This document shows positions 48,600 to 52,525 of a DNA stretch of 64,000 nt, piece after piece. The stretch's first letter is position 1; each line of letters begins with the position of its first letter. The translations under genes were made by a program, and so were the position numbers. The notes below the pieces were generated by a model that worked only from the letters and a program-made list of their open reading frames with translations, was not told where the DNA came from and made no database searches. This stretch comes from Bdellovibrionota bacterium (GTDB lineage: Bacteria > Bdellovibrionota > Bdellovibrionia > Bdellovibrionales > JAEYZS01), in assembly GCA_040386775.1 (NCBI GenBank), contig JAZKEU010000006.1, positions 16,584 to 80,583 of the forward strand. The letters run 5' to 3'.

Positions 48600-49766
48600 T
48601 TAAAGGTAAACACCTTTTTTGATTTTCTCTAAGATTATCTTCTCTGGCATGATTGGATCCTTCGGTGAAACCATGAATAAGGACTGCTGCTCGCAACGTC
48701 TTTTGTTCTTGATCAACCAGTGGAGGATGTCGGTTAATTTTTTATTCTTCTTATCATGGAAGAACGGATCGTTTTGAAGGGCATCTTTGGCTTTTTTCAA
48801 AGCTCTTGCCTCTCCCGGATCATTTTCTTTAACCGCGTAATCATGTAGATCATATTTGATAATGTCTTCCGGTAAAACTCCGAGGAATTTTACATCCGGC
48901 GCCGAGAAGTCTGAGTTTCTAATTAAAGATGCCGCAGATCCCGCTTTTAATGTTCTAAAGATATTTTGCATAGTGTACGCATCCAGATCTCCAAAGAAAT
49001 ACATCGGCACGCCCAACTGATCTTGAATCAATTTACACCAGCCACGAACAGCGTTACTCGGGACCCCTTGGGCGCCTAATAAAATACAATTGTTTCTTTT
49101 TGTAAAACCATTAGATACCAGCGTGTTCGCCGTACCCTCTGATTCTACGATCAAACAGAAATCAATTTTCTTTTTTGCTTTTAGTTGTAAACTTTGCGGT
49201 TTATTTTTGGGTTGGAATGGGGAAGTTCCCAGAGAACTTAAATCTACAACGGCTTTTGTTCCGTCCGATAGAGTTTCCGTAACCACCAGCTGTTGGGAGT
49301 AAGTTTGTCCACCACGATCATTGGCAAAACAATTCATCTCTTCCCTGTAGGCTTCAAACATTTCGCAAATGAAGTCTACGATAGAGTCACTTTCTTCCTG
49401 CTCTTGGAAATCAAGGGCTTTTAAATGCGGGTTGAATTTCACTTCACCCTTAGAGATGTAATACAACTCTCTCTTCGTGTTCACCGCGCCGGATTCAATG
49501 TTTCTAAGAAGAATTTCTAACATAAAGACCGCCCGTGCCATCTTTTGCACAGAGGCCACGTTCAATTCTGTTCTAACTTTTTTATCGCCAGGAGTAAAAT
49601 ATCCAACCTTGGGATTATAGATTACGTTATCCAAAGAACATTTTGTTGCTTCCAGTACTGGTCTTTGCGCTCTCTCGAGATCTCGCAACATCATTTCGCA
49701 AATTTCTTTAGAGAGCTTAGGAATATCTTTCCCAGATCCAATTTTACCTAGTCCGCCTTTAGCCAT
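48600..49766 (-). CDS. top6A: DNA topoisomerase VI subunit A (Spo11-like)
   Basis: DNA-cleaving subunit of the type IIB topoisomerase, which passes one duplex through another using ATP. The 388-residue protein has the 5Y-CAP winged-helix domain with the catalytic tyrosine in TKRELYYISKG (Tyr102-Tyr103; position 103 matches the archaeal enzyme's numbering as I recall it). The Toprim metal site is at Glu208 (FCLIVESEG) and Asp260-x-Asp262 (YFFGDLDAYTMQN), followed by LKAGSAAS where archaea have I-K-x-G-S. AGGA precedes the ATG. It lies 13 bases after top6B on the same strand, so both subunits come from one transcript. Mainly an archaeal and plant enzyme. Confidence 0.93.
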   Translation of the reverse strand: MAKGGLGKIGSGKDIPKLSKEICEMMLRDLERAQRPVLEATKCSLDNVIYNPKVGYFTPGDKKVRTELNVASVQKMARAVFMLEILLRNIESGAVNTKRELYYISKGEVKFNPHLKALDFQEQEESDSIVDFICEMFEAYREEMNCFANDRGGQTYSQQLVVTETLSDGTKAVVDLSSLGTSPFQPKNKPQSLQLKAKKKIDFCLIVESEGTANTLVSNGFTKRNNCILLGAQGVPSNAVRGWCKLIQDQLGVPMYFFGDLDAYTMQNIFRTLKAGSAASLIRNSDFSAPDVKFLGVLPEDIIKYDLHDYAVKENDPGEARALKKAKDALQNDPFFHDKKNKKLTDILHWLIKNKRRCEQQSLFMVSPKDPIMPEKIILEKIKKGVYL

Positions 49767-49779
49767 ATTTTCCTACTTC

Positions 49780-51603
49780 CTATTTCTTTTTCTTCGTAAC
49801 TTTTTTAGTTCCGCTTTTAGCAGCTTTTTCAGTCTTTGGCGCTTTCTCACCCTTAGTCGGCTTACTCGCCTGGGCTTTTTCTTTTGCTGCTTTAGCACCT
49901 TTTGTGGTGGACTTCCCTTCAGCTACTTCTTCTGACAACTCATGAACGTCAATAACATCCACATTCGGATCTTCGTCGTATTCGCCAGATTTTGCTTTCA
50001 TTTTTTTAAGCTTGGTATCCGCTTCTTCCAATTGCGCTTCTGCATCTTGCGCATCTCTACCTAATAATGTTCTGAGGCCTTCCTCAGCTTTTTTCTTTCT
50101 CGCGGCATTGGCAGACGTAATTCTCACCAATCCATCCACAAGCATGGGACCGAACTGTTCGATGTGACGGATCTTTCTTTCTAAGTCTTCTGCTTTCACT
50201 TCACGACGAATATGGCGAGAAAGTTTTTGACCGGCTTGCATAAGCGCACGTCTTAACTCTTCCACTAGATCATCTGAGGCATCAATTGTTTCCTTAGAAG
50301 CATTTTTAAATTTAATGAAAGGAGAAACCACACTGATCGCAAATACGTATGGACCCATTGGTACCGAGTTCTTCGGTTGATTCAATCCGTAAGCTCTCCA
50401 GTTTACTGATTCGATAGATTTTGTAATTGCACAAGCTGCTTTATCAAACTGCAAAGGCACTCTGTTTGCGAATCTTAAAACCTGCACAGGTTCGTCTTCG
50501 TTTCCACGATTTAAAAATCTTGCTAGAGCTACTTCTACAACCACAGGTTTGAAATCGCAAATTCTAGGTTTTCTCGTCACAACAGAAAAGAAATCCACTT
50601 GTCCAATACGGCCAATGCTTTTTGCAAGTGGCTCTTCGCCAACAGATAGAACTGATTTTGTAGAAGGTGAGATCAAATCTGTCTTTTGAATTGCCGTATA
50701 AACTGCCTTTAAATCATTTTCCGACATTTGACTAACAGATGAATCCAATAATTTTTTTGGAAGGCCATTTGTAACAAAATCTTTTAAGGTCGCATCAGAA
50801 ACTCTGGTGAATCCTGTTTTTAACCATTTCGAACAAGACATCTTTCCGTACAAATGTGCATGCGTGATGAACTCACCAAGCTTCATTGTATGAGGATGCG
50901 GGTTTGTTGCTGGTGGAATTGGTGGAACATCATCAGACACTCTTTCAATTGTTACCCATTCTTCATCTAATAGCTTATATTTTAAAGTCACATGCGGATT
51001 CACTAAAGTAGTGCCATCAAGATAAGTTAAGATTCCACCCTCGCCGTTCAATTGAATACGGCCGTCGAGTTTGAATTCAACCTTTACTCCGTGATCTTTT
51101 TTCCATTCGATCATTTCTTTATTACGGATAACACCTTTATTTTTTTTGATATCTACATCAACTACTGCAGAAATAGCTTTTTTCATCTTTTCGGTTTTGC
51201 TCACCACACTCACGCCTGTCGCGTTAGTTAATTGAGCCCAAGTTGTAGCAGCAGAGATACCAATACCTTGTTGCCCGCGAGAACATTGTCCCTTACCAAA
51301 TTTTGAAGAAGCCAGGTATTCACCGTAAACCATCGCAAGATGTTCCCCATCAATGCCGGGGCCGTTATCTTCAACCATAATATAAATTAGGTCCGTGTTC
51401 TTTTGAGCACCGGTACCTATTTTTTTAATCTCCACGATGATCTCAGGTTTTATACCCGCCATTTCGCAAGCATCCAAACTGTTATCTACAGCTTCTTTAA
51501 GTGTTGTAAGAACGGCCTTCGTTGGAGAAGAAAATCCCACCTGCTGTAAGTTCTTTGCAAAGTATTCTGCCGTACTACTTGTCGTAATTTGAGCTTGAGC
51601 CAA
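49780..51603 (-). CDS. top6B: DNA topoisomerase VI subunit B (GHKL ATPase) with histone-H1-like tail
   Basis: ATPase and strand-capture subunit. It starts with TTG (51603) preceded by AGGA. Domains in order: GHKL ATPase (about 10-230) with N box LKEAVDNSLDACE (Glu37, Asn41), DNGPGID (79-85) and the Gly-rich lid CSRGQQGIGIS; an H2TH region (about 240-320); a transducer domain (about 325-500) with the conserved GLNQPKNSVPMGP segment holding the switch Lys. It then has a charged helical region and, from about 564, a 44-residue Lys/Ala-rich tail (GAKAAKEKAQASKPTKGEK) like that of histone H1. At 607 residues it is longer than most archaeal B subunits because of this tail. The AB pair is complete and looks functional. 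Confidence 0.94.
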   Translation of the reverse strand: MAQAQITTSSTAEYFAKNLQQVGFSSPTKAVLTTLKEAVDNSLDACEMAGIKPEIIVEIKKIGTGAQKNTDLIYIMVEDNGPGIDGEHLAMVYGEYLASSKFGKGQCSRGQQGIGISAATTWAQLTNATGVSVVSKTEKMKKAISAVVDVDIKKNKGVIRNKEMIEWKKDHGVKVEFKLDGRIQLNGEGGILTYLDGTTLVNPHVTLKYKLLDEEWVTIERVSDDVPPIPPATNPHPHTMKLGEFITHAHLYGKMSCSKWLKTGFTRVSDATLKDFVTNGLPKKLLDSSVSQMSENDLKAVYTAIQKTDLISPSTKSVLSVGEEPLAKSIGRIGQVDFFSVVTRKPRICDFKPVVVEVALARFLNRGNEDEPVQVLRFANRVPLQFDKAACAITKSIESVNWRAYGLNQPKNSVPMGPYVFAISVVSPFIKFKNASKETIDASDDLVEELRRALMQAGQKLSRHIRREVKAEDLERKIRHIEQFGPMLVDGLVRITSANAARKKKAEEGLRTLLGRDAQDAEAQLEEADTKLKKMKAKSGEYDEDPNVDVIDVHELSEEVAEGKSTTKGAKAAKEKAQASKPTKGEKAPKTEKAAKSGTKKVTKKKK

Positions 51604-52238: not shown

Positions 52239-52268
52239 TGTCGGTTTTATGAAGAAATAAAATCGACA
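52239..52268. terminator. Hairpin shared by convergent FKBP and HNH genes
   Basis: TGTCGGTTTTAT (52239-52250) pairs with ATAAAATCGACA (52257-52268) over 12 positions with one G-T pair; loop GAAGAA. It lies between the two gene ends and contains the HNH stop codon. A T-rich run precedes it, none follows on the plus strand. Confidence 0.45.
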
Positions 52269-52525
52269 GAAGTAAGAGACTTCTTTTTCGTATTGCAGGC
52301 CTTACAACAGCAAACAATATTGTTCATTGATGAAGTTCCACCACGTGCGATCGGAACCTTATGATCCATGGTCAAATTATCCTTAGAAAACTTCTTTTCG
52401 CAGTAATAACAAATCCCTGCCTGGATCTTTTGGTTCCACCAAGATGTCTTTTTGAGGTCGCGAGCCTTGTCGCGCTCCTTTTTTAACTGTTTTGGATCCT
52501 GTGGAGCATAGAAATTCATTGCCAA
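52247..52525 (-). CDS. Small HNH endonuclease-like protein
   Basis: A 92-residue protein consisting of one HNH module. It has a Zn-binding Cys pair (ICYYCEKKF, Cys39 and Cys42), the catalytic segment LTMDHKVPIARGG with Asp54-His55, an Asn in SSMNNIV, and a second Cys pair (CKACNTKK, Cys74 and Cys77). The N-terminus is basic (PKQLKKERDKARDLKKT), suitable for nucleic-acid binding. No methylase or phage genes are nearby, so it is not part of an obvious restriction system. It could be a housekeeping nuclease or a remnant of a mobile element. Confidence 0.85.
   Translation of the reverse strand: MAMNFYAPQDPKQLKKERDKARDLKKTSWWNQKIQAGICYYCEKKFSKDNLTMDHKVPIARGGTSSMNNIVCCCKACNTKKKSLTSVDFISS

Follow-up and report, generated by a model that had tools for sequence, protein, structure and literature searches.

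A complete topoisomerase VI in a Bdellovibrionota bacterium, and the rarity across the phylum of genomes that combine it with a second type IIA enzyme

We describe a complete pair of topoisomerase VI (Topo VI) genes, top6B and top6A, in 64,000 nucleotides of DNA (the window) from a Bdellovibrionota bacterium. Across the Bdellovibrionota, genomes with Topo VI hardly ever have a second type IIA enzyme as well. We consider it likely that, in most of the phylum, Topo VI is the general decatenase in place of topoisomerase IV (Topo IV), and that it is long-established and vertically inherited. The window Topo VI adds to a group where the enzyme was already known; it has been reported for Bdellovibrio bacteriovorus as Bd2864/Bd2865 (PMC11318664, PMC11302465). 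New here are the partition at the scale of the phylum, the finding that this one phylum contains two lineages of Topo VI, and a type IIA enzyme of family f17 that is divergent and lacks a C-terminal domain (CTD).

Results

The window contains an intact top6B-top6A pair

An ORF check of the window placed top6B at 49780–51603 and top6A at 48600–49766. The former starts with TTG and encodes 607 amino acids; the latter encodes 388. Both are on the minus strand and 13 bases separate top6B from top6A, indicating a B-A operon. Pfam matches for Top6A, which comprises a winged helix/5Y-CAP region and a Toprim domain, were TP6A_N (1e-13) and TOP6A-Spo11_Toprim (2.8e-38). For Top6B, with its GHKL ATPase, H2TH, transducer and C-terminal tail, they were HATPase_c (6.9e-9) and Topo-VIb_trans (3.4e-45). 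The NCBIfam score for Top6B (504 bits) was far over the cut-off of 274; the Top6A equivalog scored 412 bits, slightly under the cut-off of 424. Searches of PDB sequences led to archaeal Topo VI for both A (5e-33) and B (3e-78).

A promoter search of the coding strand upstream of top6B gave no match above chance. The upstream neighbour, at 52247–52525 on the minus strand, encodes a small HNH protein of 92 amino acids. Its motif is intact, and the gene is found in the same orientation as top6B in many Bdellovibrionales-type genomes (L033-L043, L045, L062). We know of no link between this protein and topoisomerases. The order histidine kinase–two response regulators–glutaredoxin–HNH(–FKBP)–top6B–top6A is kept, whole or in part, in many genomes of the same type.

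Catalytic residues and predicted fold

To assess residue conservation, we aligned 58 homologues of Top6A and 59 of Top6B, drawn from the Bdellovibrionota, from other bacteria and from Woesearchaeota. All features that follow are encoded on the minus strand. In Top6A, residues R99, Y102, Y103, E208, D260, D262 and E359 are invariant or nearly so. The segment R99-E-L-Y102-Y103 lies at 49458–49472, and R99, Y102 and Y103 do not vary among the 58 homologues. The same is true of the Toprim metal site D260-L-D262 (48981–48989; E208 is at 49143–49145) and of E359 (48690–48692), which is part of an RxEQQ motif. In M. mazei Top6A, the catalytic tyrosine is Y106, the clasp is formed by R102/E342 and the Toprim residues are E202/D254/D256 (PMC13040014). 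Alignment with the M. mazei chain predicts Y103 as the catalytic tyrosine, equivalent to Y106, and R99 as the clasp arginine, equivalent to R102. As judged from the motif, E359 is probably the electrostatic clasp partner corresponding to E342. Y103 and the acidic residues E208, D260 and D262 line up with those of M. mazei and M. jannaschii.

In Top6B, there is no or almost no variation at E37, N41, D79, G81, G83, W402, Y405 and K437 or in the SRGQQGIG box. Within the N-box E37-A-V-D-N41 (51481–51495), E37, D40 and N41 are invariant and A38 and V39 almost so. The alignment also delimits the G1 box D79NGPG83 (51355–51369) and the ATP-lid box S108RGQQGIG115 (51259–51282); in the latter, R109-G113 and G115 are invariant and I114 nearly so. 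The transducer (residues 313–477; 50173–50667) contains S436-K437-E438 and W402-R-A-Y405, which corresponds to the WKxY DNA-binding motif of M. mazei. The M. mazei DNA-contact residues R263 and K268, and K399 of WKxY, align with basic K262, R267 and R403 here.

AlphaFold models had a pLDDT of 92 for Top6A and 84 for Top6B. In both cases the best matches were M. mazei Topo VI chains (Foldseek, 4e-23 for A and 2e-46 for B). The Top6B model matched 9o0g_B and 2q2e_B over about 490–506 columns, including the H2TH region. The C-terminal tail of Top6B (residues 542–607; 49783–49980) is predicted to be disordered (pLDDT < 50). It is rich in Lys, Ala and Thr, and the protein has no Ig-like CTD. Tail length and charge differ greatly across the phylum. 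In several families (L009, L016, L040, L042, L060 and others) long Top6B tails consist of histone-H1-like Lys/Ala repeats, with a net charge of up to +40; such tails are absent in others.

The features that define Topo VI at the level of sequence are in place: an A subunit with a catalytic tyrosine and acidic triad, a B subunit with GHKL, H2TH and transducer regions, and separate, adjacent genes. The first-pass annotation had reported a complete top6B-top6A pair with a 13-base gap, GHKL boxes and a transducer in B, and a YY motif (residues 102–103) and Toprim Glu/Asp-x-Asp site in A. The ORFs, Pfam, NCBIfam and PDB matches all agree with this, and the motifs named are invariant or nearly so in the 58–59 homologues. 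A missing tyrosine, which that annotation would have counted against Topo VI, was not seen; Y102 and Y103 are present in every aligned Top6A. Judged from its sequence, the window pair is a true and complete Topo VI in a bacterium.

The gene pair belongs to the Bdellovibrionota

The first-pass annotation had also allowed for a contaminating archaeal contig. The GC content of top6A and top6B is 40.8%. The window has 39%, as does the gyrase locus, which lies on a different contig. The assembly is 98.4% complete and has a reported contamination of 0.03%. In G136, a member of the same family, Top6B and Top6A are 69% and 84% identical to the window proteins. Identity of the two proteins is 55–85% within the Bdellovibrionota, but only about 35% to anything else. 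Because the operon recurs across the phylum, accompanied in many relatives by the neighbouring HNH and glutaredoxin genes, because identities are highest within the Bdellovibrionota, and with the clade remote from archaea, the probability of archaeal contamination is negligible; we found nothing in its support.

The host genome has gyrase and no Topo IV

We searched the host genome with Pfam models for GyrB-type (PF00204) and GyrA-type (PF00521) proteins, a check that the first-pass annotation had proposed. A single PF00204 gene (822 amino acids) and a single PF00521 gene (825 amino acids) were found, adjacent on contig C9. Both score as gyrase; GyrA has a GyrA-box, QRRGGKG, at 527 and six CTD blades. 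The search detected no ParC or ParE in the 98.4% complete assembly. With only one gyrA/gyrB pair, and without ParC/ParE, Topo VI is therefore not working beside Topo IV, as had been supposed.

Topo VI and a second type IIA enzyme partition the phylum

We then counted Pfam matches in a sample of 291 Bdellovibrionota genomes, drafts included. Top6B was present in 173, spread over at least 20 families. Conversely, f17, which is probably the Bacteriovoracaceae, had Top6B in none of its 96 genomes and a second GyrA- or GyrB-type gene in 88 (both in 82). When only f17 genomes of at least 90% completeness were considered, 69 of 71 had such a gene. Outside f17, Top6B was found in 173 of 195 genomes, normally with one gyrA and one gyrB. 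Judged from the counts and scores, extra PF00521 matches outside f17 mostly came with weaker best scores and a single PF00204 match, as expected of genes split between contigs. The sole Top6B-positive genome with extra copies of both gyrase-type genes was G022, which has 5% contamination. Its extra set is gyrase-like, has the GyrA-box variant QSRGGKG and is on an 8.6-kb contig.

The Top6B-negative genomes outside f17 were of several kinds. Family f11 has an ordinary second type IIA pair without a GyrA-box. Gyrase seems to be the only type II enzyme in f13 and f21, and perhaps in f19, for which there is one incomplete genome. Since several lineages appear gyrase-only, a second enzyme seems to be dispensable, which counts against Topo VI as a replacement of Topo IV. 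G279 and G195 carry Top6A; hence, we rejected loss of Top6B in favour of assembly gaps. G241, which is 97% complete, has gyrase only and no Top6; none of its DNA matches the 16 kb around top6 in G194, a genome of the same genus. Here, an assembly gap is as likely as loss.

The split between Topo VI and a second enzyme gave a Fisher value of 6e-56, which ignores relatedness. Parsimony on the GyrA tree required only about five changes of Topo VI presence. Because related genomes are not independent, such p-values overstate the case; the evidence is a few independent events with very consistent descendants.

The second enzyme of f17 comprises a ParE-like protein of 689–715 amino acids and a ParC-like protein of only 477–480, which has no CTD. 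The loci are L207:2387-5988 (G008, presumably an approximate match to Halobacteriovorax marinus SJ), L208:1717-5239 (G039) and L209:3681-7246 (G088). The short ParC-like protein keeps the catalytic tyrosine (PAAxRYIE), is about 27% identical to GyrA and scores far under every NCBIfam cut-off.

Topo VI in other phyla and its phylogeny

Type IIB topoisomerases had been described in the first-pass annotation as typical of archaea and plants, which is fair, and as rare in bacteria, which holds for isolates only. The 173 Bdellovibrionota genomes are one example. In addition, a scan listed at least 584 relatives that could be confirmed; many of them come from MAGs of Planctomycetota, Myxococcota and Acidobacteriota, and some are archaeal. 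Among 144 Myxococcota genomes, 29 had Top6B. A single GyrA-type gene was found in 20 of these 29 compared with 26 of the 115 without Top6B (odds ratio 7.6); the other nine Topo VI genomes showed a second GyrA-type match. In three Gammaproteobacteria MAGs, Top6B is accompanied by two GyrA-type genes, one as long as GyrA and the other as long as ParC. Seven families have been reported to combine Topo VI with Topo IV (PMC11302465). Thus, the association of Topo VI with a single GyrA extends past the Bdellovibrionota but is not strict. In the Gammaproteobacteria MAGs at L073 and L094, Topo VI sits among Planctomycetota sequences, which points to transfer.

We placed the window pair in trees with bacterial and archaeal sequences, as the first-pass annotation had suggested. 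It fell, remote from archaea, in a clade that unites 31 Bdellovibrionota sequences in both the Top6A and the Top6B tree (100% SH-aLRT each). This main clade keeps the B-A order, with B then A in nearly all loci where both were found. In the joint tree, a stem of about 1.5 changes per column sets it apart from all sampled bacterial and archaeal sequences. The tree is unrooted and we name no donor, given the long branches of S. shibatae and M. mazei and the stem of 1.5. The position of B. bacteriovorus Top6B has been called 'anomalous' (PMC11302465); our trees suggest that this is a property of the whole Bdellovibrionota clade, beyond one sequence. Branches within the clade mostly track families (f12, f15, f16/f20/f22/f26, f2), with exceptions such as f24 beside f2. 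This tracking indicates long vertical inheritance.

A second Topo VI lineage is found in f14/f18 (L003-L008). It is about 34% identical and groups with the other bacterial enzymes, closer to the Planctomycetota/Myxococcota types. Bdellovibrionota-type Top6 was also seen in L050, L057 and L059, from MAGs titled Nitrospira, Bacteriovorax stolpii and Lysobacteraceae. By gyrA position, L059 and L057 match the Bdellovibrionota genomes G044 and G006; hence, these titles are probably wrong. Phage records gave no Topo VI A match and a plasmid search found Topo VI only in haloarchaeal megaplasmids. Thus, there is no sign of a mobile-element origin.

Discussion

Proposed role of the enzyme

The two genes would specify an A2B2 type IIB topoisomerase. 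On binding ATP, the GHKL domains of Top6B would dimerise and the transducer would relay this to Top6A. Paired Tyr103 residues would then cut both strands of one duplex to leave overhangs of two bases, as the archaeal enzyme does, and another duplex would go through the break before resealing. In the cell, Topo VI would unlink replicated sister chromosomes, as Topo IV does elsewhere, and gyrase would maintain negative supercoiling. Chromosome decatenation is the most economical role because gyrase is the only other type II enzyme; Topo VI would be active, would mainly decatenate and would be essential. In vitro, the M. mazei enzyme acts preferentially as a decatenase: it favours crossings or braids over supercoils, and relaxing the latter takes about 10-fold more enzyme (PMC8837201). 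It is also said, as unpublished data, to complement an E. coli parE-ts mutant (PMC11302465). We found no biochemistry or genetics of any bacterial Topo VI in the literature.

It is conceivable, though unlikely, that decatenation falls to gyrase and that the chief task of Topo VI is to clear positive supercoils or knots in front of forks and transcription. Gyrase-only bacteria do exist, here f13 and f21, and archaeal Topo VI has been proposed to relax supercoils (PMC8837201). However, the preferences of the M. mazei enzyme described above argue for decatenation, as do K262, R267 and R403, which keep the aligned DNA-contact positions basic.

The first-pass annotation had linked Topo VI to filamentous growth. 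A specialised function in sorting many chromosomes, during the filamentous, non-binary division of predators, seems to us more doubtful still. G073 and G005, which we take to be B. bacteriovorus HD100 and B. exovorus JSS, both carry Topo VI. Both species divide non-binarily from filaments (PMC11055950), and so B. exovorus is unusable as a counter-example. Conversely, Topo VI is missing from all 96 genomes of f17, taken as the Bacteriovoracaceae, where another type IIA enzyme is present instead, yet Bacteriovoracaceae also invade the prey periplasm. Furthermore, among the 20 or more families with Topo VI are many (f12, f15, f16, f20 and others) that are not known to us to be predators. A generic decatenase accounts for the same facts and the link to filamentous growth is unsupported.

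Programmed double-strand breakage or defence without strand passage, in the manner of Spo11, MksG or Gabija, is a very improbable function: Top6A homologues act in meiosis and plasmid defence (PMC13040014) and a conserved HNH gene is nearby, but Top6B is full-length with intact ATPase, H2TH and transducer, the B-A operon is strict, the distribution is near-ubiquitous and mostly vertical, and no defence genes were seen adjoining.

Topo VI as a general decatenase remains our preferred explanation. More speculatively, and with rather less than even confidence, we propose that the place of 'second type II topoisomerase' has at least four mutually exclusive occupants in this one phylum: the private, long-separated Topo VI clade, the f14/f18 Topo VI, the CTD-less type IIA enzyme of f17 and the ParC/ParE-like pair of f11. 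Topo VI would then be a true displacement of Topo IV by an enzyme of another class, with the basic tail of Top6B doing the DNA targeting of the ParC CTD.

The persistence of an archaeal-type Topo VI in some bacteria has been posed as an open question by a recent survey, which took a single species from each family and emphasised that a bacterium with Topo VI has not necessarily lost Topo IV (PMC11302465). In the Bdellovibrionota, at the scale of the phylum, the presence of Topo VI nearly does imply that Topo IV is absent. Topo VI is thus a candidate for the sole dedicated decatenase of the laboratory predator B. bacteriovorus, with consequences for the topoisomerase drugs that would be effective against these predators. 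Because Topo VI and a further type IIA enzyme so rarely share a genome, the idea of replacement can be tested directly.

Comparison with known systems

G073 belongs to f1, a different family from the host. Its Top6B and Top6A are 69% and 78% identical to the window proteins, with the same B-A order, in the same clade and with gyrase only. If G073 is indeed B. bacteriovorus HD100, its single GyrA-type gene suggests that Bd0005 is GyrA. For HD100, a review assigns Bd0005 to Topo IV and Bd2865 to Top II (PMC11318664). Allen and Maxwell scored B. bacteriovorus as having Topo VI and gyrase without Topo IV (PMC11302465).

Archaeal Topo VI (M. mazei 2Q2E and 9O0G; S. shibatae 2ZBK) has all domains, the catalytic residues and the predicted fold in common with the window pair. 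Conversely, identity is only 21–31% and Top6A has clade-specific inserts. In addition, M. mazei Top6B has an Ig-like CTD, whereas the window Top6B has a disordered basic tail instead. The Topo VI enzymes of Planctomycetota, Myxococcota, Acidobacteriota and f14/f18 are likewise bacterial type IIB pairs, often without Topo IV, but are about 35% identical and lie across the long branch of 1.5 changes per column.

Topo VIII is a fused or compact type IIB enzyme. We rejected a plasmid-borne Topo VIII, free or integrated, on the basis of two full-length, separate subunits and a conserved chromosomal locus. Spo11 and the meiotic Topo VI-like complex, in which the B ATPase is degenerate or absent, were rejected since the B ATPase boxes are intact. 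Bacterial Topo IV (ParC/ParE) is a type IIA enzyme with another arrangement of catalytic modules, and is absent from the host genome; what it would share with the window Topo VI is the proposed role in decatenating sister chromosomes.
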